This document shows, in pieces, positions 3,413 through 46,914 of a stretch of DNA of 49,242 nucleotides (positions are counted from its first letter, which is position 1; each line of letters starts with the position of its first letter). This DNA is from a bacterium (GTDB lineage: Bacteria; Patescibacteriota; CPR2; UBA1875; JAJYID01): NCBI GenBank assembly GCA_021796415.1, contig JAJYJC010000007.1, positions 1 through 49,242 of the forward strand, in the 5' to 3' direction. A model generated the notes under the pieces. It was not told the DNA's origin. It did not search any database and was given only the letters and a program-made list of their open reading frames with translations. The translations under genes and the position numbers were made by a program.

Positions 3413-4501
3413 ATGGCAAAGCTTAGACATTTTGGATCTTACGCAAAAAAACTTTTTAAAAACAAGTATTTTCTCTTGATAGCTTCTGTTTTGGTCGTGG
3501 TTGGCGGAGTTTTAATCTACCTTGCCTTTACCGCGCCCAAAGAATTGCCGGTGCAGAAAATAATCCACCTAACGACTACAACCACCAAAGATAATAGGGT
3601 TCAGTCAAAACTCGAGGGTATCAAGGTTGACCCATCTGTAAATGATAGAAAAATACTGGCAGTGGTCGTTGAAAACCACCCTGATGCCAGGCCGCAATCG
3701 GGGCTGGACAAGGCAAGCATCGTCTATGAAACAATCGCCGAAGGCGGCATCACCAGATTTCTGGCTCTTTACCAAGAAAACGAATCCTCAGAAATCGGAC
3801 CCGTCAGATCGGTGCGAACTTATTTTCTGGATTGGGCAACCGAGTATGACGCTCTGCTTGCGCATGTCGGCGGCAATGTAGACGCCCTTGACTTAATCGG
3901 TCCCTACAACATCCAGGATATCAATCAGTTTTTCAACGCCACATATTTCTGGCGAGACAACTCTCGCTATGCGCCTCACAATGTTTATACAACAACTGCC
4001 AAGCTGCGCGATGCTGGGTTGGCGCACCATTATCCGTCAACCAGCAACTTCAAGGGCTTGGATTTCAAATCTGATGCGCCACTTGCCGAACGGCCGGACT
4101 CAGCAACGCTCACGGTTCACTTCTCCGGCATGGAATATGATCCTGTCTATACTTACGACAGAAACTCAAACACATGGCTTAGAAGCTTAGCCGGCGCGCC
4201 ATTTAAAGACAAAGTAACAGGCAGTCAACTTGCTCCTAAAAATGTTGTCGTAGAATTTACGACCTTCTCCTACGGGCTAACCCGGTACAATGAAGCCACC
4301 ACGCACATCGGTACCATTGGTTCCGGCCGGGCCTTATTCTACATAGACGGCAAGCAGATTGAAGGGACTTGGGAAAAGGCAGATAGGGCTTCGCAGACGG
4401 TTTTTAAAGATGCAAACGGCGCTGAATTTAAGTTTAATCCGGGGCAAACCTGGATAGATGTCATTCCAAATGGCAACACAGTTGATTTTACGGGCAGTTA
4501 A
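3413..4501 (+). CDS. DUF3048-domain (YerB-like) protein, N-terminal TM anchor
   Basis: VVENHPDARPQSGLDKASIVYETIAEGGITRFLALYQ...IGPVRSVRTYFLDWA motif. Confidence 0.8.
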   Translation: MAKLRHFGSYAKKLFKNKYFLLIASVLVVVGGVLIYLAFTAPKELPVQKIIHLTTTTTKDNRVQSKLEGIKVDPSVNDRKILAVVVENHPDARPQSGLDKASIVYETIAEGGITRFLALYQENESSEIGPVRSVRTYFLDWATEYDALLAHVGGNVDALDLIGPYNIQDINQFFNATYFWRDNSRYAPHNVYTTTAKLRDAGLAHHYPSTSNFKGLDFKSDAPLAERPDSATLTVHFSGMEYDPVYTYDRNSNTWLRSLAGAPFKDKVTGSQLAPKNVVVEFTTFSYGLTRYNEATTHIGTIGSGRALFYIDGKQIEGTWEKADRASQTVFKDANGAEFKFNPGQTWIDVIPNGNTVDFTGS

Positions 4502-10649: not shown

Positions 10650-11533
10650 AACAATTTGGAACAGATCTGCCGATAAACATAAGGTAAACTAGAGGTGGAA
10701 AGGAGGCCATCTGTTCATGAGAAAAGAATTATTAACTGACTTGACGGAAACTGAAGCAAGGAAGAAATTAAGGGGCAATTTAGGCAAGCATATTGAATGC
10801 CCTAAATGCCACAAAAAGAAGTATGTGAGAAAAATGAAAGGAAAAGACAAAAGATACCACTGTTCTAAATGCAGGCATAAGTTCTCTTTAAAGAGTTTAA
10901 CCGGATTCAAACATTCCAACCTTGATTTTAAGCAGATATATTATCTTCTCCATTGTTTCGGCAACAACAAGACCCACAAAGATGTCATTGACTGGCTCGG
11001 GGTGTCATATCCGACCTCAAGGCTTAACTATTCTAAGATAAGGAAAGGGCTTGAAGCAAGTTTGGATAAGGGTAAGATATCAGGTATCTTTGCCTGTGAT
11101 GAATGTTTCGTGGGAAAGAAGAAAACAGGCAACCAGGCCCTTGTCATGGGGGCAGTGGATGTTTTGTTTGCCGACGTAAGGCTGGAGGTTATTCCTGACA
11201 GGGATCAGGACTCGGTAGAAGGCTTTATCTTTAGTAACATTGAGACTGACTCAAAGATAATCTCTGACGGCTGGAGTTCATATCAAGGGATAGAGTTTAT
11301 GGGCTATGCCCATGACACCGAGATACATGAAAAAGGACAGCTTGAGAAAACAGTTCCTATTGAGAGAGTCTGGGGATTATTCAAGACATTCTTAAGGAGA
11401 AGCTACCATCATATCCATAAGGAAATACTGCCTGAATATCTGGTGGAATTTCAGTTCAAATTTATCCACCGAGAATATCGCAATAATCCCTTATACATAG
11501 CTAAAATATTAACTAACCCTGTTCCAAATTGTT
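10650..11533 (+). mobile_element. IS1595-like insertion sequence
   Basis: Perfect 15-bp inverted repeats aacaatttggaacag (10650-10664) / ctgttccaaattgtt (11519-11533) flank the transposase. Confidence 0.85.
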
Positions 11534-11535
11534 GA
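10717..11535 (+). CDS. IS1595 (ISXO2-like) transposase
   Basis: N-terminal CPKC..CSKC zinc ribbon, DECFVGKKK, DGWSSYQG, ERVWGLFKTFLRRSYHHIHKE. Confidence 0.9.
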   Translation: MRKELLTDLTETEARKKLRGNLGKHIECPKCHKKKYVRKMKGKDKRYHCSKCRHKFSLKSLTGFKHSNLDFKQIYYLLHCFGNNKTHKDVIDWLGVSYPTSRLNYSKIRKGLEASLDKGKISGIFACDECFVGKKKTGNQALVMGAVDVLFADVRLEVIPDRDQDSVEGFIFSNIETDSKIISDGWSSYQGIEFMGYAHDTEIHEKGQLEKTVPIERVWGLFKTFLRRSYHHIHKEILPEYLVEFQFKFIHREYRNNPLYIAKILTNPVPNC

Positions 11536-11624
11536 CATTACTCGACTTTTTTTGTCTAAAATGCTTAAGCAAAGCCAAAAAATAATTTTGTGCTCAGGGT
11601 AAACTAAGTTTTTGGCAAAAGAAA

Positions 11625-11648
11625 AAGGCGGCCCGGGCGGGCCGCCTT
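11625..11648 (-). terminator. terminator for the 11684-12085 gene
   Basis: aaggcggcccgggcgggccgcctt hairpin, followed by T-run on the minus strand. Confidence 0.7.
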
Positions 11649-11683
11649 GATCAAGGTGCGAATGTTTGAGGTGTGGGGTAGGG

Positions 11684-12085
11684 TTAATCCTCCTTAAGCG
11701 GACGGTGAAGAATCCTGACATATCCCCTGTCGGTGAACTTTCTGATACCGATCAAGAGCATGTCCACGAAATCTTCTTTCTCGAAGTCGACTTCCCATCC
11801 GTCTTTGGTAGTGACCTTGATCGCGTCGCCTACCCGCAAAACCGTGAGTTCAACCTTCTTGTGTGGATAAAGATAGGCTTTCACTTCCAGATAACCGACA
11901 GTCGGCAGGGCGCCTTTTGAGTATGCTAGCATTGCACAGGCATACTCGTAGTCAAAGTTATATCTCCTGCCGTTTTCTACTTGTACAGCTACATCGCCCT
12001 CATCCTCATCCTCGAGGCTGTCTATGTACACCTGCCTTTCTGTAATTCCATTGCCAGTTCCTTTGCTGGTTTGGACAGTTATCAT
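11684..12085 (-). CDS. hypothetical protein
   Basis: 133-aa ORF with its own terminator. Confidence 0.55.
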   Translation of the reverse strand: MITVQTSKGTGNGITERQVYIDSLEDEDEGDVAVQVENGRRYNFDYEYACAMLAYSKGALPTVGYLEVKAYLYPHKKVELTVLRVGDAIKVTTKDGWEVDFEKEDFVDMLLIGIRKFTDRGYVRILHRPLKED

Positions 12086-36523: not shown

Positions 36524-37273
36524 TTAAATTTTATCCTCTTTGAACCAAGGTTCTTTGAAAACTTCCATCCAGGAAAGATCTCCTTCTATGCTCCAGCTAA
36601 CATCGAGTCCGCATGCGAAAAATGTTCTGTATTGATGTAACATTTCCCTCAACCTGCTAATAATTTCTTCTAACTCCTTATCGCTAGGCAATAATGATTC
36701 TGGTTTTTCTTGATTGTGTAATACTCGTTCATTGATGAACTTTAGTTTCCTCTTCGCTTTCCCGAGGTACTCTTCATCTTTTTTAAGTTTTTCCTGTGAT
36801 AGCTTGCCGCTTGAATCAAAAAAACCTTCTGTTGCAGAATTGATACCCACGTGATATCTGATATCTGTTTCAGGAAATTTATACTTAAAGTATTTTGGAT
36901 AATTTTGTTTAGTCACTGTGTTTCCGTTATCTTTGAGTTGAGTGATAATTTTTAGCAGACTGTATTCTTTCTGGTTATTTACATTGAAGAATATTTTTCT
37001 CAGAGCAGCTAAAAGAGCATAATAATGGTTGCGTTCGACCCATTGATGGAAATAATATCCTGAAGAGTCAATCGCCATATTATCTTGAACGAGCTTTTTA
37101 TAACTTTCAAAAATGCGATTATTTCTAATAACATCTAACTCAAAACTGTCTGCTAGTTTTTCTATTTGCTTTTGCCACTTTAGGAAATTATTCTTTTTCA
37201 TTTGTACTTGTGTCTTTTGATCTATAATTACACCCACTATGATTACCACAACCAAAGCAATTATTAAACCCAT
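36524..37273 (-). CDS. hypothetical protein with N-terminal TM
   Basis: aaggagg RBS before ATG 37273. Confidence 0.6.
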   Translation of the reverse strand: MGLIIALVVVIIVGVIIDQKTQVQMKKNNFLKWQKQIEKLADSFELDVIRNNRIFESYKKLVQDNMAIDSSGYYFHQWVERNHYYALLAALRKIFFNVNNQKEYSLLKIITQLKDNGNTVTKQNYPKYFKYKFPETDIRYHVGINSATEGFFDSSGKLSQEKLKKDEEYLGKAKRKLKFINERVLHNQEKPESLLPSDKELEEIISRLREMLHQYRTFFACGLDVSWSIEGDLSWMEVFKEPWFKEDKI

Positions 37274-37386
37274 GCCTATTTCCTCCTTCACTGTATTATA
37301 CCACTTATGGCTTGGGGAAGCCATTGGAACGGTCAGAAATCCCGGGCGCGATTGTTTATTTGGCCAGGATAGGCTATATTTGAACC

Positions 37387-37872
37387 ATGGAAGAGGAAGA
37401 AAAAAATCGCCAGGCATCGCACATCCGGGTGCATATGAACATTGCATATCTGCACATCGTTTTTACTATTTTCATCCTGCTCATTACCTTGGCCCCGAAC
37501 TTTCTAAAGGAAAACGAGCTTTTGTCTATGCAAATCGTCTTGGCGATCCCGTTGCTTTTTAGCTCCATTTTTGCCAGGTCGAGGTCAGTTTATGTCGGCA
37601 AAGACACAGCGCTTTGGAAAAACTATGGTTTTCTCTGTTTTCTGGTCGCCTACACTTTGCTGGTAAACTCTGTCGGCATATTGCTGGCGCTTTTTGCAAA
37701 GCCGATGATCGTCTACATCTTTTTCTTTGCAAATATTATCCTGGCTGAGACATACTCTCTCATGGAAATCATCGAGAGAAAAGAAAAAATTGCCGAGCGA
37801 ATCTGGAAGGACGGCCTATTTATCATTCTTTTAATTTTTCTCGGGCTTTTGCCGGCACTCAAGATTTACTAG
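37387..37872 (+). CDS. membrane protein
   Basis: 161-aa, multi-TM. Confidence 0.6.
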   Translation: MEEEEKNRQASHIRVHMNIAYLHIVFTIFILLITLAPNFLKENELLSMQIVLAIPLLFSSIFARSRSVYVGKDTALWKNYGFLCFLVAYTLLVNSVGILLALFAKPMIVYIFFFANIILAETYSLMEIIERKEKIAERIWKDGLFIILLIFLGLLPALKIY

Positions 37873-38162: not shown

Positions 38163-38354
38163 CTATTTCCACCTGTAAACATGGACGGCAATGTACATTG
38201 CCAGCATGCCAAGCAGAAATCCGGCGGAAAATGTCATTACAACCATCGATTCTGCGCTGCCGCGCAGGTACCACTCGAGGATATTGAGGACGGCCATAAC
38301 GATGACGACGGCTATTACGTAAATGTAGAGTGGATATTTTTTCATAACAAACAT
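38163..38354 (-). CDS. small membrane protein
   Basis: 63 aa, two hydrophobic segments. Confidence 0.45.
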   Translation of the reverse strand: MFVMKKYPLYIYVIAVVIVMAVLNILEWYLRGSAESMVVMTFSAGFLLGMLAMYIAVHVYRWK

Positions 38355-38361
38355 ATATTTC

Positions 38362-39012
38362 CTACTTAGTATATCTGAAGAAAAATCTCAATGCATTACT
38401 TTTATCATAAAAGAAATAGATAACTCCGCAATTAATCTTATTCATATCTTTTGGTGTTGTGGTGCCGTTAGCTTTACCATAGTTTGCAATCACACATTTA
38501 TTTGCTAGCTCACCTCTAAAGATGCTTCTTTTTTTCACATCAAATTTTTCCAATTCTTGTGTGTGTCCCAAAATACCTTTTAAGTTTTTACAAGTTGCGT
38601 GAAGTATTTCTTCTTGGGGCAAATGGCGGTCCACTCCCTCGTTGGTTAAGAGGTGAACATGATAAAACCCACTTTGTTGGCCGATCATATCCGGGATTTC
38701 GGCAGATTTTTCTGCTGCAAAGAGCATCATTTCTTTGATTTTATTTTTTAACTCTTTCGGAATTCTTGTTTCATCTACAGCTTTACCTTGCCTGACCTGA
38801 TCTTCAAGATTTTCTACCCTTTCTTGGGTTAAGCTCATCTCTTTGGGATCTCGTTTTGTGTTCTCCATCAACTTGATCAGTTTTTGATCTAGGTCAATTA
38901 AAAGTTCTGGTTTGGTTAATCCTAATCTTTCTAGGTAGTCTGCTTGATTAGCCGTCATATTAAAATCACTAGTAGTAGATTCGCTTGGTTTATTGAATTC
39001 AGAATCTGTCAT
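38362..39012 (-). CDS. hypothetical protein
   Basis: 216-aa ORF. Confidence 0.6.
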   Translation of the reverse strand: MTDSEFNKPSESTTSDFNMTANQADYLERLGLTKPELLIDLDQKLIKLMENTKRDPKEMSLTQERVENLEDQVRQGKAVDETRIPKELKNKIKEMMLFAAEKSAEIPDMIGQQSGFYHVHLLTNEGVDRHLPQEEILHATCKNLKGILGHTQELEKFDVKKRSIFRGELANKCVIANYGKANGTTTPKDMNKINCGVIYFFYDKSNALRFFFRYTK

Positions 39013-39065
39013 ATTTTCATCTGAAGAAATAATTATTTAGCTAGATTATTCGGACGGGTTAGAAG

Positions 39066-40091
39066 CTATTGAACTTTGTCTATCTGCGGTCTTCTGGCGA
39101 TATAGCGGAAGATTGGATTTGATGACGTCTTTGAATTGTTGAAAACACGGCTAAAGATACGTACAAAAGCGGCAAATAGAACATAACCAATTATAACACC
39201 TATGGTATTGAATATAACATCGTTGATGTCAGCAATTCGGAAGGTCATTTTCCCAACGAACCCGGTTATAAACTGCAGAAACTCAATAGCTATACTAAAG
39301 GCCGCGCCGATAATGACTACTTTCTTGAAGCGAAGTTTCGTAACAAAAGGCAATCCGAAGCCGAAAGGCATCATCATTAGGATGTTTAGAAGGGATGTTC
39401 TTGCATCTTTCAATGTTAGCGTGGCCAGAGGAATAAGGTTTAGGCCTTTCCCGGCCTTTACTCCATTAAGCATAAGCCCTGATATAAAATATCTTTCAAA
39501 AACCAGAGATTGAAATTGGAACAGCGTATAGTCCAGAACAAAGTAGAGATAAACGTAGAAGATAGTAAAAAAGAGCAGATATACCGAGCTCATCTTTTTC
39601 TTGAAGGCAAGGTAAATAACGATGCCGAGCCAAATCAAACCGAACAGAAGAAATTTTGCTAAAGCAACTGCTGTGTTAAAGTTTTTCGTCTTTTCCCCAT
39701 TTACTGTAGGAGGTGCGCCTTTGGCATTTGTTGTGCAGATCACAACAGTATCTGCGGTAAAACTGCCGTCAGAATCCGGTCCCCCGACTAGCGTTACACT
39801 TTCTCCGGTTTTCAGATTAGACAGTGATACAGAGCCGGCGGACGTTTTGATCGCTGCCTGACTTGCAAGGTAAATGGTTTGAGTCCTGCCATCGTCGTTT
39901 CGCCTGATTGTAAATGAGTTGTTGCCCAACCCGACAATCTCTCCCTTTCCGCCTGTGCCGCTACAAAGATCGCCGGTTGTGGGGATTGCTCCTTCCGACT
40001 GGTTGGCCGCAAGGGCTGCATACTTGTAATTAACAAAAAAAGCCGCAGTGAACACAGCAACTACTGAAAATGTTAATAAAAATTTCTTCAT
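39066..40091 (-). CDS. VanZ-family protein with N-terminal extracytoplasmic beta domain
   Basis: LNLIPLATL...LLNILMMMPFGFGLP...SIAIEFLQFITG...DINDVIFNTIGVIIGY. Confidence 0.8.
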   Translation of the reverse strand: MKKFLLTFSVVAVFTAAFFVNYKYAALAANQSEGAIPTTGDLCSGTGGKGEIVGLGNNSFTIRRNDDGRTQTIYLASQAAIKTSAGSVSLSNLKTGESVTLVGGPDSDGSFTADTVVICTTNAKGAPPTVNGEKTKNFNTAVALAKFLLFGLIWLGIVIYLAFKKKMSSVYLLFFTIFYVYLYFVLDYTLFQFQSLVFERYFISGLMLNGVKAGKGLNLIPLATLTLKDARTSLLNILMMMPFGFGLPFVTKLRFKKVVIIGAAFSIAIEFLQFITGFVGKMTFRIADINDVIFNTIGVIIGYVLFAAFVRIFSRVFNNSKTSSNPIFRYIARRPQIDKVQ

Positions 40092-40374
40092 AGCTTTCCC
40101 TTTGAAAATATTATTATATTCTGAGAAAAAACTTAAGCGATAATTGACTAGTGGCAAAAAACGTGGGGACAAAGATAATTTTTAAAAATAAGCAATTTTT
40201 TTGAAATCATTGGTTCTTGTCTGGTTTGGGTGTAATAAAAAACACGATTTTCATATGAAGTCGTGTTTTTTATTAGATTTTCCTTAATGATTAAAAGGTC
40301 ACAAGGTTTGACCTTTTAAGGGTCAGGCCTTGTAATTTATAAGAAGTGCATTTCTTAAACAAAACATCTATTCT

Positions 40375-40902
40375 TTACCGATTTTTAGTATCAAACAGGC
40401 CCATGTAAATTTCATCATAGTATTTTCCATCGTGTTTGATCTGCTCCTTTAGGCGACCTTCTTCAACGAAGCCAAGTTTGTTATAAAGCCGAAAAGCATT
40501 CTCGTTATAGCTGTTAACCTCAAGGTAAATTTTGTGTAGTTTAAGTTTGCTAAAACCGAAGTTAATTATGTATTCACATGCTTTTCGACCCAATCCACGC
40601 CCCCTGTACTTATCCTCACCAATGATTATATAAAGCATTGCGTTCTTGTCTACAGGGTTAATATCCGTTAATCCAACAATACCAACGGGTTTACCATTTA
40701 CCTCGATGATATAGCGTTTGTCATTTTCGTTATTAACATAGCTTTCAAACCACTTCTTTGCTTCTTTTAACGTTGTGCCTTTTCTGATTTGCCAACCTAG
40801 ATTTTTGCTGATTGCTGGATTGTTTTGCCATTGTGTTCGTAACTTCAGATCAGATACTTCGAGGGGGCGATATACAATTTTTAATTCTTTTTTTCGATCC
40901 AT
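40375..40902 (-). CDS. GNAT acetyltransferase (RimJ/RimL-like)
   Basis: GEDKYRGRGLGRKACEYIINFGFSKLKLHKIYLEVNSYNENAFRLYNKLGFVEEGRLKEQI. Confidence 0.93.
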   Translation of the reverse strand: MDRKKELKIVYRPLEVSDLKLRTQWQNNPAISKNLGWQIRKGTTLKEAKKWFESYVNNENDKRYIIEVNGKPVGIVGLTDINPVDKNAMLYIIIGEDKYRGRGLGRKACEYIINFGFSKLKLHKIYLEVNSYNENAFRLYNKLGFVEEGRLKEQIKHDGKYYDEIYMGLFDTKNR

Positions 40903-41025
40903 AGATATACTCTAACATTATATGGCAAAATCTAAAATGTCCTAGACAAATCCATGAATTTGTTTTATAATCTCGCGCAGTACCTTTACTTGTCCTAACG
41001 AACTTGAAGAAAGGAGGGTATCCCG

Positions 41026-42609
41026 ATGATTAGCATCAAAGAACTGACCTATGAAGTTGCCTCCAGAACGATCCTAGACAAGGTGAACTTCACTGTTGGG
41101 GATGGTGAGCGAGTCGCCATCATTGGTCCTAATGGAGCGGGGAAAAGTACCCTCCTGAAAATAATTATGGAGAGGCTTGACCCAACTGAAGGACAAATCG
41201 TCAGATCAAAGAGTTCCGGCTCCGTAGGTTTCATGCCCCAACATCTGGCTGATCTTGGGCAGTTACCGCACCAGAGTGTGTTGGATTTTATGCTCTCGGG
41301 CAGAAATCTGGACACCCTGACCCAGATTATTAACCAGAAGCTCGCAGAAATGGAACAGACTGGGCTGTCACGAGACGAGTACACCCGACTAGTGCGTGAG
41401 TACTCTGAAGCGTTTGATCAGTTTATGGAGCAAGGTGGCTATGAGGCAGAAGGTGAACTGCTGGAAATCTTGTTGCGGATGAACCTTGATGGGCTCGATC
41501 TCGATCAAGATATCCAGACACTAAGCGGCGGACAGAAGACCAAGGTGGCCTTCGCTCGCGTGCTTTTTTCTCGGCCGCAAGTAATGATTCTAGACGAACC
41601 GACGAATCATCTTGACGAAGAAACCATAAACTGGGCTGTAGAGTACCTGAAGAAGTTCTCTGGAACTCTCATCATGGTGTCTCATATTCCGAGTGTATTG
41701 GATGAGCTCGTTACAAGGATCGTCTACCTCGACGGTAGTGGAAAGGCAGCTATATTCAGAGGGAACTTCACAGAGTTCCAGAAGAAGAAGTTGAATCTTG
41801 ACGCTGCTCAAAAGAAGCTTCGTCGCAAACAGGAAGAAGAGGCCGAAAGGCTATCGGAGTTCATCGAGAAGTGGCGTGGCAAGAGGCCGAAGCTGGTCAA
41901 GGATCGGGAGAAGAAGCTGGAAAGGCTACGTGAGATTATGGTGGAGGCACCAAAAGTACAGCGACAGATTTCGGTTACCTTCCCAGTTTCAGTTCAGCCT
42001 GTTAAAAAGGTTCTTGACGTCAGTAACGTTCACAAAACCTTCGGTAACAACGAAGTTCTTCATGGGGTAGATATCGACTTCTACCGTGGCGAACGAGTTG
42101 CAATCATGGGTCCCAATGGAGCTGGCAAGAGTACCTTGCTGAAGATTATCGCTGGAAGACTAGAGCCAGATAGTGGCAAAGTCATCCTCGGTGATCGGGT
42201 CGACATCGGTTACTATGCTCAAGAGCACGAGTCATTAGACACCACGAGAACAGTTCTAGAGGAAATGATGAGCGTGAAAAGCCTGAACCAATCGAAAGCA
42301 AGGGCGATCCTTGCTCACTTCCTCTTCCAAGGTAATCGGGTTGAGACACTTGTGGGATCATTGAGTCTCGGTGAGCGTAGCCGTTTGGTTCTTGCCAAGC
42401 TGGTTGCATCTGGTCATAACATGCTTTTACTTGATGAACCGACCAATCATCTTGATGTCTTCGCTCGTGAACAGGTTAAGATGGCCCTCAAGAAATATGA
42501 GGGTACCGTTCTGATCGTTTCTCACGATAGCGAATTCCTGGAAGGTATAGGGGTGGAGAAAGTCCTACTTCTTCCAGAGCACAAGTTCGGTCTAATGGGA
42601 CGAATCTAA
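41026..42609 (+). CDS. ABC-F family ATPase
   Basis: Two NBDs (GPNGAGKSTLLKII twice, LSGGQ and LSLGERSRL), duplicated DEPTNHLD, no TM segments. Confidence 0.94.
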   Translation: MISIKELTYEVASRTILDKVNFTVGDGERVAIIGPNGAGKSTLLKIIMERLDPTEGQIVRSKSSGSVGFMPQHLADLGQLPHQSVLDFMLSGRNLDTLTQIINQKLAEMEQTGLSRDEYTRLVREYSEAFDQFMEQGGYEAEGELLEILLRMNLDGLDLDQDIQTLSGGQKTKVAFARVLFSRPQVMILDEPTNHLDEETINWAVEYLKKFSGTLIMVSHIPSVLDELVTRIVYLDGSGKAAIFRGNFTEFQKKKLNLDAAQKKLRRKQEEEAERLSEFIEKWRGKRPKLVKDREKKLERLREIMVEAPKVQRQISVTFPVSVQPVKKVLDVSNVHKTFGNNEVLHGVDIDFYRGERVAIMGPNGAGKSTLLKIIAGRLEPDSGKVILGDRVDIGYYAQEHESLDTTRTVLEEMMSVKSLNQSKARAILAHFLFQGNRVETLVGSLSLGERSRLVLAKLVASGHNMLLLDEPTNHLDVFAREQVKMALKKYEGTVLIVSHDSEFLEGIGVEKVLLLPEHKFGLMGRI

Positions 42610-42637
42610 GATCGGGGGGTCTACGGATCCCCCGATC
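42610..42637 (+). terminator. terminator after ABC-F
   Basis: gatcggggg-gtctacggat-cccccgatc. Confidence 0.6.
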
Positions 42638-42671
42638 TCCCGCTCAAATCAAAAGTTTATTTATATATTGA

Positions 42672-42702
42672 AAGCCCCCTGACATGTAGCGTCAGGGGGC
42701 TT
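42672..42702 (-). terminator. terminator at the end of the putative RiPP operon
   Basis: aagccccctgac-atgtagc-gtcagggggctt. Confidence 0.65.
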
Positions 42703-42756
42703 GCAGCTTTCAGGGGTAAGCTACTAACCTTTTTGTCGGAGAGGAGGATTCCGAAA

Positions 42757-44085
42757 TTAGCCAGAGGTGATCCAGCTTTCGAATATTGCACGAGTCCATC
42801 GGCATTTGTTTGGATCGATGCCATCAATCCTTCCATTTGCATGGAAAGATCCGGCCGCACATCCACCACCACAGCCCGCTATTGCAGGACAGTCAAGACA
42901 CTCGGTGTTCTCAAAACGTGTCCGGTTTAGCCAGGCACTCCTGGAGTCAGTGTTGATACCATCTCTTAAGGTACCAATTTTGGAAAGACCGGTTTCTTCA
43001 AGCGCCTGACATACATGTAGGTCTCCGTCGGGGAAGACGGTGATCTTGCGGCTAGTACCACATTCAGAGATGGATGTTGAACCGCTCTCAAGAGTATGAA
43101 ACTGGCTACAAACCCCAAAGTCTTTGGCGCCTAACCTTTTTGCTGCCTCAGCAGCAAGGGCCATCTGGCGAGCGGCTGCTTCGGGGTAGTCATGTCGAGT
43201 ATCGCCCGTACCGCTCATCAGAACACTCATGTAGTACTCCCGGATTCCAAACCTGTCGACAAGCCAAGGGACGAAAGTCGGAATCTCGTTCAGATTGTCG
43301 TCAGAAACGGTAATCATGGGGACGATCGAGGCACCCTTCGAGTGCAGAATCTCTAATCCTTCCATGACCTTGGCATAGCTGCCGTTACCTGACTTCATAA
43401 CACGATTCAGGTTATGGACTTCCTCAAACCCATCAATTGAGACCTGGAACTCAACCCCCTCCTTGATGAGCACATCAACTGCCGGATCATTAGTCATGGT
43501 TGCGTTAGTGTTTATGACGATTCGACAATCCCGAACCAGACGACCCAGTTTCTGTTCTGTGCGAACTTGCTGAATGGCAGCCAAGATCGCTCGAGTGTTT
43601 AGGAGTGGTTCACCCCCATAAAGGGTTACCTGCTCCCAGTATTCACCAGAACGATCATTGTTTGCGACCTGGTTCGAGAAGTGGTGTATTGCCTCGATTG
43701 CCGTATCTGGGCTCATTTGGCGATTTGCAACCTTACCTGTGAGTGATTTGCTGCCACTTGCTCTATACAAGCAGTATGTGCAGTCGAGGTTGCAAGTAGT
43801 AGTAACAATCAAGTAGAGTCCTTGAATCTGATTGCTGATCGAGAGCTTCCTTGATCGTGCAATCATCATCTCCTCTTTATTATCTGTTACTAGTATGCCT
43901 GTTTCGCGCAGTTTGGTGTACTCGTCACCGAAAAGGGTGAGAAGCCTGGGCTCTTTGAGGTCTGCTTTTCTAAGGTCGGCTAGCCTGTCGAGGGTTTTAT
44001 TACTCAGGAACACCCTCTGTGCCTTTAGTGATTGCCAGACGAAGCCTTGTTTCGAGTAGAAAAAGGCGAATCGTGAAATGCGCAT
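42757..44085 (-). CDS. radical SAM/SPASM peptide maturase 2
   Basis: CNLDCTYC [4Fe-4S] motif, YGGEPLLN, C-terminal CLDCPAIAGCGGGC SPASM; ATG 44085, 5 nt after the preceding stop. Confidence 0.92.
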   Translation of the reverse strand: MRISRFAFFYSKQGFVWQSLKAQRVFLSNKTLDRLADLRKADLKEPRLLTLFGDEYTKLRETGILVTDNKEEMMIARSRKLSISNQIQGLYLIVTTTCNLDCTYCLYRASGSKSLTGKVANRQMSPDTAIEAIHHFSNQVANNDRSGEYWEQVTLYGGEPLLNTRAILAAIQQVRTEQKLGRLVRDCRIVINTNATMTNDPAVDVLIKEGVEFQVSIDGFEEVHNLNRVMKSGNGSYAKVMEGLEILHSKGASIVPMITVSDDNLNEIPTFVPWLVDRFGIREYYMSVLMSGTGDTRHDYPEAAARQMALAAEAAKRLGAKDFGVCSQFHTLESGSTSISECGTSRKITVFPDGDLHVCQALEETGLSKIGTLRDGINTDSRSAWLNRTRFENTECLDCPAIAGCGGGCAAGSFHANGRIDGIDPNKCRWTRAIFESWITSG

Positions 44086-44090
44086 CGCTC

Positions 44091-45161
44091 TCACTTCCTG
44101 GGATATGTGCAGTCGAGATCTTCGTTTTCCATGGCATGAGTAGGGAACACGCCAAGGTTGTAGAAGGTTTGGCACTGAGGATCCGGCGCATAGAAGTCAT
44201 TGTACTTCGACGCTGCGTGTAGTCTACAAGCGCCTTTGCACAAGTTTCGCGCAAGGCAGTTGCCGCAGATGCCCCCAAGCTTGTCTGGGTCCAGATTACG
44301 AAAGGCGGCAAGAACGCTGTTGTTCTCCCAGATCTCATTCAAGGGTGTTCGGGTGAGATCACCGAATATGAAACCGCTCTCGTTGTTGGCGACATGGCAG
44401 AGACTGGCGACTCCTTGTGGTCCTACCCCCAGCATGTTTGATCCCCAGGGGCAGAGTCCGAAGCTCTCGATGTCCATTGGCAGAAGCGCAATATTCATCT
44501 CGATGCTGTTGCGATCAGAATCGTTCTCCCGTAGGAAATCGTAGTATTCATCCAGTATCTTCTGCGTCTCGTCGTAACTTACACCGTAAACGTTACATGC
44601 GTAGACTCCCTTGCCATATTCTATGATGTTCGGGAGAAGACGAAAGCCGAGACCGATGCTGTTGAAGTGCTTAGCCATCGGCAGGATCTGTGTCTTGTTG
44701 CCTTTGTGTAATACGGAAATGACCCGGGCGTTGATGCCGCGATCGGCTACGCTGTTGATCGCATTCATTGTTTTCTCAAACGACCCTTTGCCACGGATCA
44801 GATCGTGGGTCTTGGCATCAAAGCCGTCCATACTGAAGGAGATACGTAAAGAATCTCCTAGTGTGGCCAGTTCGTTGATGATGTTGGGGTTAAGAAGGAC
44901 CCCGTTTGTTTCGATGCTGACGAACAGTCCCTTTTCGGCAATCTTCTGAATGAGCGGGAGCGCATCCTTACGAGTGAAAATCTCTCCACCCGTGATGTTG
45001 ACCTGTTCCAGCCCAAGCTCGATAGCATCATTCACGACACCCTCGAAGAAACTTGCAGGTAATTCGCTCAGTCTGGCGATGCTCTCATCACGTCCGCAAT
45101 GGACACACGAGAGATTGCAGCGATTGGTTAAATTGAGTGCGAGAACCGTGAGCTTATCCAC
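44091..45161 (-). CDS. radical SAM/SPASM peptide maturase 1 (GTG start)
   Basis: CNLSCVHC motif, ITGGEIFTR, C-terminal CGNCLARNLCKGAC SPASM. Confidence 0.92.
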   Translation of the reverse strand: MDKLTVLALNLTNRCNLSCVHCGRDESIARLSELPASFFEGVVNDAIELGLEQVNITGGEIFTRKDALPLIQKIAEKGLFVSIETNGVLLNPNIINELATLGDSLRISFSMDGFDAKTHDLIRGKGSFEKTMNAINSVADRGINARVISVLHKGNKTQILPMAKHFNSIGLGFRLLPNIIEYGKGVYACNVYGVSYDETQKILDEYYDFLRENDSDRNSIEMNIALLPMDIESFGLCPWGSNMLGVGPQGVASLCHVANNESGFIFGDLTRTPLNEIWENNSVLAAFRNLDPDKLGGICGNCLARNLCKGACRLHAASKYNDFYAPDPQCQTFYNLGVFPTHAMENEDLDCTYPRK

Positions 45162-45212
45162 GTTGAACCCCTTCTAGTTGAAAGAGAGGCACCTTGTGTC
45201 TCTCCAAGTTAT

Positions 45213-45287
45213 TTATGGAAGATGGCAGCCACAGTGGCTACTGGACTGCTTAATGATTGTGTTCATGGCCATAACTCGTACTTTCAT
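45213..45287 (-). CDS. putative RiPP precursor C (24 aa)
   Basis: aaaggaggtctacATG; MKVRVMAMNTIIKQSSSHCGCHLP; immediately upstream of SPASM protein 1; not in supplied ORF track. Confidence 0.65.
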   Translation of the reverse strand: MKVRVMAMNTIIKQSSSHCGCHLP

Positions 45288-45396
45288 GTAGACCTCCTTT
45301 CGGCCTGGGTTTTTTGTATGCCATGCTTCAACCTTCATTCTTTGTTTCGCTCGTTATATTAGACGAGGTATGTAAACCTCGGTATTTCTTGATTGT

Positions 45397-45427
45397 GGGC
45401 GAGAGGCGCGTATAGCGCCTCTCGCCC
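45397..45427 (-). terminator. intra-operon hairpin (possible attenuator or processing site)
   Basis: gggcgagaggcgc-gtata-gcgcctctcgccc, 13-bp perfect stem, no T-run on the minus strand. Confidence 0.6.
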
Positions 45428-45438
45428 CACCGCACATT

Positions 45439-45513
45439 CTACCCGCGGCGGCAACTGTAGCGAGTGGTCTTCCGTGCGACGTCTTTGATCTTGTCCTGGA
45501 ATCGCTTCTTCAC
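45439..45513 (-). CDS. putative RiPP precursor B (24 aa, GTG start)
   Basis: gggagggagcatcGTG; MKKRFQDKIKDVARKTTRYSCRRG. Confidence 0.68.
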   Translation of the reverse strand: MKKRFQDKIKDVARKTTRYSCRRG

Positions 45514-45528
45514 GATGCTCCCTCCCTT

Positions 45529-45603
45529 CTACCCGCGACCGCAGTTGTAGCGGGCGGTCTTCCGTGCGACGTCTTTGATCTTGTCCTGGAATCGCTTCTT
45601 CAC
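45529..45603 (-). CDS. putative RiPP precursor A (24 aa, GTG start)
   Basis: ggaggtagtatcGTG; MKKRFQDKIKDVARKTARYNCGRG; start overlaps the arginase-like stop as GTGA. Confidence 0.7.
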   Translation of the reverse strand: MKKRFQDKIKDVARKTARYNCGRG

Positions 45604-46619
45604 GATACTACCTCCTTCCAAACTTTGGAGATTGACAGGGAAAACGTTGAGGTTCTGTCTCCGAGATCTGGTCCATTCAACTCGACCACTTCACCAAGAA
45701 GCGTCCCTTGTTTGGTACTAAAGCCAGTTTTGATACCGGCAAGCTTAGTGCCTTGCTTGATTGCAGTTATCAGCTGCAGGGCCTCTTTTCTTGTTGGGCC
45801 GTCCTCACCTAGTCGATAGAGATTTCGAATGCCGTGCATTCCGATAGGTCGGATGCTGCTTTCGGCAAAGTCCATAGCCTTCTCGGGATCTAACTGGCCC
45901 ACATTTACTGTCGAAACGTTGAGCAGTACACCGAAGGGGCAATACTCCATAGACGTTAGCCGTTCACTTCTAGTACGAAGAACGTCTAGGTCGAAGGATA
46001 GGTATATCTCATCGACTTGTTTCGACTTGAGCCAGGACACAATCGCGATTGGGTTTGTCGAAAAGAAGACGCGTTCGGACACTTCACTTGAGATGCGCGA
46101 AAGAGTATTCCTAATTCTGAAGTCAGCAACGCCAACTAGAACTAGGTAATCGATCACGTCTGCATCTAACAAGTGAGTAAAGACATTACCCTTCCAGAGC
46201 GCTTCCATTTCCGACAGGTCATCGTGTGCGTCGAAGCAAACAATGGCCCTGGTAAATCCGCTCTTGCTGTCCTGGAGCGTGTGAAAAGTGCTGGCATGCG
46301 AATCCGAAAAGAAGAATAGATTCCTAGTCTCGTCAGGGTCGATAAGTTCAGGAATATGGTAATCTTCCATGACGGTACCCGAAAGGTCCATACTGATCAC
46401 CTGTTTTAAGGGTGACGGCCCCTGTCCTAGGGGAATATCAGTCGTATTTTCAAGTTCGACCTGATACTCTTCGTAGAGGTCAAGGATATAGTCTATTCTT
46501 TCGTCGCAGCCCGCATAGTTGCGTAGTGCCTGGATGTTCAAGGAGAGTTGGGTCAGCTCTTTCTTGCCCATCTTTCCGATACTGGAATCTTCCTTAAGAT
46601 GAGGAAGCCAGATGTTCAT
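45600..46619 (-). CDS. arginase-fold protein, candidate peptide arginase
   Basis: Metal-binding-type motifs SDSHAS, VCFDAHDDLSE, YLSFDLDVLR; gaggagg RBS. Confidence 0.72.
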   Translation of the reverse strand: MNIWLPHLKEDSSIGKMGKKELTQLSLNIQALRNYAGCDERIDYILDLYEEYQVELENTTDIPLGQGPSPLKQVISMDLSGTVMEDYHIPELIDPDETRNLFFFSDSHASTFHTLQDSKSGFTRAIVCFDAHDDLSEMEALWKGNVFTHLLDADVIDYLVLVGVADFRIRNTLSRISSEVSERVFFSTNPIAIVSWLKSKQVDEIYLSFDLDVLRTRSERLTSMEYCPFGVLLNVSTVNVGQLDPEKAMDFAESSIRPIGMHGIRNLYRLGEDGPTRKEALQLITAIKQGTKLAGIKTGFSTKQGTLLGEVVELNGPDLGDRTSTFSLSISKVWKEVVS

Positions 46620-46837
46620 TTTGTTCCTCCTCTTCGACTGTCAAGGTCCGCTCCACGGACCGGAGTATAGATTGAAAAAATTTATATCACAAAAAAATAT
46701 TTTTTACAATACTATTTTAATTTTGCTACAGGATTCCAGTATTATTTTTGAGAATAAGTAATGACACCACCCTTAGAATTTATTTGATAATGAAAAAATA
46801 AACTATCCGAAGATAGCTTATTTAACATAATTCTATT

Positions 46838-46914
46838 TGGCGACCCGGACCGGACTCGAACCGGCGACCTCCACAGTGACAGTGTGGCGTTCTAACCAAC
46901 TGAACTACCGGGCC
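46838..46914 (-). tRNA. tRNA-Asp(GTC)
   Basis: Cloverleaf on the minus strand; anticodon loop CTGTCAC, encoded CCA. Confidence 0.95.

Follow-up and report, generated by a model that had tools for sequence, protein, structure and literature searches.

The window analyzed here is the entire 49,242-nucleotide contig JAJYJC010000007.1 (C4) from a member of the Patescibacteriota (assembly GCA_021796415.1; 903 kb in 49 contigs, 90% complete), a bacterium with a tiny genome and probably a parasitic lifestyle. Its minus strand carries an operon of about 4 kb (46619-42757) that is best explained, and in our judgment probably accounted for, as a biosynthetic pathway for ribosomally synthesized and post-translationally modified peptides (RiPPs), with two radical S-adenosylmethionine (rSAM) modules and an arginase-fold enzyme. 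The operon is real, and it is very likely of RiPP nature. Bacteria of the Candidate Phyla Radiation (CPR) are thought to make little, and their effects on hosts and competitors are unclear. The order along the minus strand is arginase-like gene, precursor A, precursor B, hairpin, precursor C, SPASM-1, SPASM-2 and a terminator-type stem; all seven elements described in an earlier note on this sequence were confirmed in the claimed order and on the claimed strand.

45600..46619, minus strand: arginase-fold protein, putative peptide arginase (339 amino acids; PF00491; SpeB-type profile; motifs given below)
45529..45603, minus strand: precursor A, VKKRFQDKIKDVARKTARYNCGRG (Shine-Dalgarno (SD) sequence GGAGG; the start codon, GTG, overlaps the stop of the arginase gene)
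45439..45513, minus strand: precursor B, VKKRFQDKIKDVARKTTRYSCRRG, a tandem copy of A
45397..45427, minus strand: GC-rich hairpin with a 13-bp stem, without T-run (folding z -6.1)
45213..45287, minus strand: precursor C, MKVRVMAMNTIIKQSSSHCGCHLP, with a Cys-X-Cys motif (SD AAAGGAGGT)
44091..45161, minus strand: SPASM-1, radical SAM/SPASM protein (356 amino acids; PF04055 and PF13186)
42757..44085, minus strand: SPASM-2, radical SAM/SPASM protein (442 amino acids; PF04055; start placed by alignment)
42669..42705, minus strand: terminator-type hairpin closing the operon (folding z -5.9)

Short encoded precursors thus lie beside modifying enzymes, and the succession of precursor, hairpin and rSAM gene recurs in relatives. 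The 442-nt gap that holds the precursors contains three SD-led open reading frames (ORFs) of 20-60 amino acids; the number expected is 0.12 (0 of 500 shuffles). Gene A and the arginase gene overlap by 4 nt, GTGA, which combines the start of the one with the stop of the other. A and B differ in 3 of 24 codons, namely codons 17, 20 and 22 (A/T, N/S and G/R); all three changes are nonsynonymous and all fall within the last 8 codons (p ~0.03 by chance). This pattern is typical of a constant leader joined to a varying core: the leader is common to both, and the C-terminal end is variable, RY[NS]C[GR]RG. Precursor C contains two Cys only. Its N-terminus, MKVRV, is also found in the Cys-rich precursor at L042:1476-1598, with which it shares its CxC character; the likeness is confined to these first five residues and the CxC, and the overall alignment is not significant in a shuffle test. 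An alternative 24-codon ORF, MAYKKPRPKGGLHESTSYGHEHNH, overlaps C in another frame (~45249-45323, minus strand) and has a weaker SD. The hairpin 3′ of B (-31.8 kcal/mol; 0 of 200 shuffles) is a probable processing/stability or attenuation element, which would allow a surplus of precursor over the rSAM enzymes. A promoter-like site at 46692-46664 does not stand out from chance expectation.

Comparison was made with 380 genomes of the phylum (those listed being ~0.5-1.4 Mb, small sizes that fit the CPR), 16 genomes of the class, plasmids, phages and viral contigs. SPASM-2 matches the NCBIfam profiles of PapB (161 bits; cut-off 340) and FibroRumin (116 bits; cut-off 400) over full length and below both cut-offs, and it also matches the CteB structure 5wgg. 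About 90 amino acids precede its rSAM domain. Because the AlphaFold prediction, made with 5 alignment rows, has a low-confidence N-terminus, we infer rather than observe a RiPP recognition element (RRE) fold in this region. The four closest relatives in the phylum are 23-28% identical to SPASM-2; the CxxxCxxC motif and seven C-terminal Cys are invariant in the five-sequence alignment that includes it. In 4/4 of these relatives, an SD-led Cys-rich mini-ORF and then a hairpin (z -2.6 to -5.7) lie directly upstream of the maturase gene. The mini-ORFs are as follows.

L042: MKVRVASSKKKRRLLAGKISKDEGRNMAYECACSCACRSK
L040: MKNKAVAPSRADYLAVLGRVTTRPRQDTNTVCICTCVHCNVSTVHRTTPASPIVAR
L041: MFNYWVPKRADFNRVRGKIGSGVKMKCDSRCDCTACDSCRCTPCHRSSVTRTSLRRRV
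L039: MLLVPKNEHYRKILGSLESQTTMNLKCGACNSCTGSPNKCK

The L039 mini-ORF scores 20.6 bits against FibroRuminTarg (cut-off 45; E 3e-4), and the L039 and L042 maturases score 263 and 253 bits, respectively, against the FibroRumin maturase (cut-off 400). Precursor C itself has no match to the Cys-rich FibroRumin or PapB targets in NCBIfam. Upstream of the weaker matches that SPASM-2 has in the rest of the phylum there is no such clear mini-ORF, and a scan of viral contigs with the SPASM-2 alignment returned distant rSAMs only, with no arginase and no convincing match to A, B or C. The statement in the earlier note that the operon belongs to no close known class was therefore too strong for one half, in that the SPASM-2/C module is FibroRumin/PapB-like.

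SPASM-1 combines PF04055 (Radical_SAM) with PF13186 and has no N-terminal extension, RRE-like or otherwise. Its best NCBIfam profiles are ScmF/PqqE-like, with AhbD and mycofactocin also among them, all below their curated cut-offs; its best Protein Data Bank (PDB) match is 6c8v (PqqE). Searching genome contigs with SPASM-1 gave matches at 24-26% only. Two relatives, L165 (genome G175) and L198 (genome G138; reached through a metallopeptidase search), have upstream of them a hairpin and an Arg-rich mini-ORF, MRKFRILNRGNRRIVVLTKESQGTMYYRGQ and VKQRKKSQQRNKPVSHIVCRGNRRRIVAHREALGAVKYKGQ, respectively. These two mini-ORFs are homologous to each other (0 of 2000 shuffles), and they resemble A and B in being Arg-rich with a Tyr near a Gly-containing end, a similarity that is not significant at the sequence level. 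Relatives were also inspected in G348, G176 and G273; those in G348 and G273, which adjoin His-rich (His-Xaa-Ser-like) repeat proteins, were set aside. At these loci (L166 and L168), several rSAM genes are clustered by repeat proteins of the SHSSH / SQHSQH kind.

Since the rSAM relatives follow Cys-rich mini-ORFs in the case of SPASM-2 and Arg-rich ones in the case of SPASM-1, we propose C as the probable substrate of SPASM-2, and A and B as the probable substrates of SPASM-1; this pairing is based on architecture and composition rather than on homology among the precursors.

The arginase-fold protein has a single Pfam match, a weak one to PF00491 (23.1 bits; cut-off 22). As read from the sequence, its metal-binding motifs are intact and the catalytic motifs are kept: DSHAS (the first His motif), FDAHDD, NVFTH (His), SFDLD and GEVVELN, the last being the counterpart of the guanidinium-binding Glu, read by eye outside the MAFFT alignment. 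A profile of SpeB-type proteins of the phylum aligns to residues 125-214, the DAHDD to SFDLD core. An arginase of PF00491 with intact metal ligands is thus found within an rSAM cluster of RiPP type. PF00491 proteins occur in 43/380 phylum genomes; they are mostly SpeB-like, and nearly all outscore the protein of the window by far. Its only PDB match is weak, to a formimidoylglutamase. No relative was found in the phylum or class genomes, the plasmids, the phages or the viral contigs; in the phylum set, a 919-aa frame gave a marginal match over 78 residues, which was judged to be chance. For lack of such a relative, the triad of arginase, short precursors and two rSAMs is so far unique in the sets searched, and it is as an inference that we put forward the conversion of Arg to ornithine (Orn); the building blocks of the triad do recur among bacteria related to this one. 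We regard the enzyme as a likely but unproven peptide arginase.

A number of results weigh against the RiPP explanation. None of the precursors A, B and C matches those of other loci significantly in sequence, and none has an NCBIfam match; no locus with an arginase and A/B was found elsewhere in the phylum and class genomes; an alignment-free AlphaFold prediction of the arginase is uninformative (pLDDT 35); the L165 and L198 enzymes carry an N-terminal extension, which SPASM-1 does not; and neither a leader peptidase nor an exporter is encoded within the operon. The earlier note had proposed the RiPP reading and held that it would fall if the precursors were not conserved at homologous loci. 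Neither the exact precursors nor the triad turned up at any other locus, but a mini-precursor and hairpin of its own accompany each rSAM family; the reading therefore stands as the best explanation, with some of its details amended.

Three other explanations were weighed. The locus may consist of two adjacent RiPP modules, with the arginase-fold enzyme acting on a small molecule or as another hydrolase. PF00491 is a broad family, covering agmatinase, formimidoylglutamase and guanidinases, and both the formimidoylglutamase match and the SpeB-like proteins of the phylum are in keeping with this; yet the overlap with A places the arginase gene among precursors and enzymes of peptide modification, which make up the rest of the operon. 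Precursors A and B are also abundant in core Arg, and the protein is highly divergent from the SpeB-type enzymes of the phylum, so we consider such a role unlikely. Somewhat less likely still is that only one mini-ORF group, C or A/B, is a true precursor, the remaining short ORFs being regulatory or leader-type. That A and B are without detectable relatives, and that C is overlapped by another frame, would agree with this; the strong SDs before A, B and C, the confinement of the A/B differences to the core, and the mini-ORFs of matching composition that precede the relatives of each rSAM argue otherwise. Lastly, instead of maturing RiPPs, the rSAMs could be maturases of the cofactor type or of proteins (PqqE, heme d1, sulfatase maturase). 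The leading profiles of SPASM-1 and its PqqE structural match point in that direction, whereas all rSAM profile scores among the models listed lie under curated cut-offs, the operon has no cofactor-pathway genes, and the closest rSAM relatives are accompanied by mini-ORFs. No sulfatase (PF00884) is encoded anywhere in the genome, and the sulfatase-maturase score is 75 bits against a cut-off of 349, so that the refutation the earlier note had allowed for, a sulfatase maturase beside its sulfatase, did not hold. This last explanation is very improbable.

Under the favored reading, that of a RiPP pathway with two rSAM modules and an arginase, a single transcript would carry two Arg-rich precursors (A and B) and one Cys-X-Cys precursor (C). 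The most likely role of SPASM-2 would be to form thioether links at the Cys residues of C, and that of SPASM-1 to introduce crosslinks in the part of A and B that holds Cys and Tyr; by analogy with KgrD in the enteropeptins, the arginase would most likely hydrolyze core Arg of A and B to ornithine. Should it act on peptides, the PF00491 peptide arginases would gain a second branch, one that has diverged strongly. With three 24-residue precursors in 4 kb, a pathway of Arg-to-Orn conversion and radical crosslinking becomes directly testable.

The operon belongs to a block of ~8.5 kb (38347-46830), situated beside a tRNA-Asp gene, that G204, a close relative in the same genus, lacks. The immediately flanking sequences of the two genomes share ~81-91% identity, and in G204 a mere 119 bp separate the counterpart of the 38163-38354 gene from the tRNA-Asp match (L053). 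Besides the operon, the block holds a gene of unassigned family, a VanZ-like gene, a GNAT gene and an ABC-F gene. No integrase was seen, and no integration direct repeats were found between the tRNA-Asp and the left border of the block. A HEPN/AbiU2-like protein near the block (36524-37447) is a weak match, below cut-off.

46838..46914, minus strand: tRNA-Asp flanking the accessory block
41026..42609, plus strand: ABC-F ribosomal-protection-like protein in the accessory block (NF000355, 435.6 bits; cut-off 380)

As a hypothesis, the ABC-F gene is a possible immunity gene, and so perhaps are the GNAT and VanZ-like genes. The product may have an antimicrobial or a signaling role. That the operon is a dual-module system for an ornithine-containing RiPP antibiotic directed against hosts or rivals, with immunity conferred by the block-borne ABC-F (possibly with GNAT/VanZ), is a speculative proposal that we consider doubtful; if true, an episymbiont would make an antimicrobial, two differently crosslinked peptides arising from one operon.

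A family of HExxH metallopeptidase-like proteins, ~235 amino acids long and without a convincing Pfam match, adjoins rSAM/mini-precursor cassettes across the phylum. Its members include the following.

L039:9151-9849 and 11295-12011
L040:1862-2581
L041:2393-3112
L042:3068-3763, minus strand
L198:3993-4697, minus strand

An rSAM gene lies within 1.5 kb at 11/30 loci of this family (7/26 when the seeds are left out); the family, a candidate leader peptidase, is absent from the genome of the window. More Cys-rich mini-ORFs with strong SDs lie by rSAM and HExxH-type genes, some of them downstream of the rSAM, and their loci are likely to be additional RiPP cassettes.

L200:5925-6044
L199:4384-4563, minus strand
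L201:1728-1847 and 3660-3746, minus strand

Cassettes of precursor, hairpin and rSAM are thus recurrent in the phylum, often with a metallopeptidase-like neighbor.

RiPPs have already been reported in CPR bacteria, chiefly linear azol(in)e-containing peptides (LAPs) and YcaO clusters (PMC7298704, PMC12153355), and azole-type RiPPs (LAPs) are reported as widespread there (PMC7298704); the earlier note had held that a RiPP pathway in a CPR-like genome would in itself be notable. That note had also drawn arginase parallels with OspR and the enteropeptins, and these survive in part. In the enteropeptins, the PF00491 arginase KgrD acts after an rSAM-made thiomorpholine (PMC12703449, PMC10028609). 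The kgr cluster (rSAM sactisynthase and KgrD) likewise combines a PF00491 arginase with an rSAM/SPASM enzyme and a precursor that contains Cys and Arg (PMC12703449, PMC10028609), whereas the operon of the window lacks an N-methyltransferase and has other precursors, three mini-precursors and two rSAMs; KgrD is likened to its arginase by superfamily only. The OspR-type peptide arginases (landornamide, FlmR, OhkR) belong to PF12640 (PMC12703449). They share with the window an arginase fold in a RiPP cluster and an Arg-rich core, but the arginase of the window has no PF12640 match, and the OspR-type motifs EEH(N/H)EAF and LDIDLDYFSC are absent from its sequence. With the StsB/WgkB/ScmF/PqqE-type maturases, SPASM-1 has in common an alignment with ScmF over most of its length, and L165 is nearest to StsB; SPASM-1 differs in scoring below the cut-offs and in lacking an RRE-like extension. 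FibroRumin, for which no mention was found in the literature searched, and the PapB ranthipeptides are the systems nearest to the other module: SPASM-2 matches both maturases (TIGR04136 and NF047865) near full length, the precursor is short and Cys-rich, and the phylum relatives of SPASM-2 are closer to FibroRumin. In contrast to these systems, SPASM-2 scores below cut-off, C has two Cys and no match to the target family (TIGR04135 for FibroRumin), and the operon of the window adds a second rSAM and an arginase.

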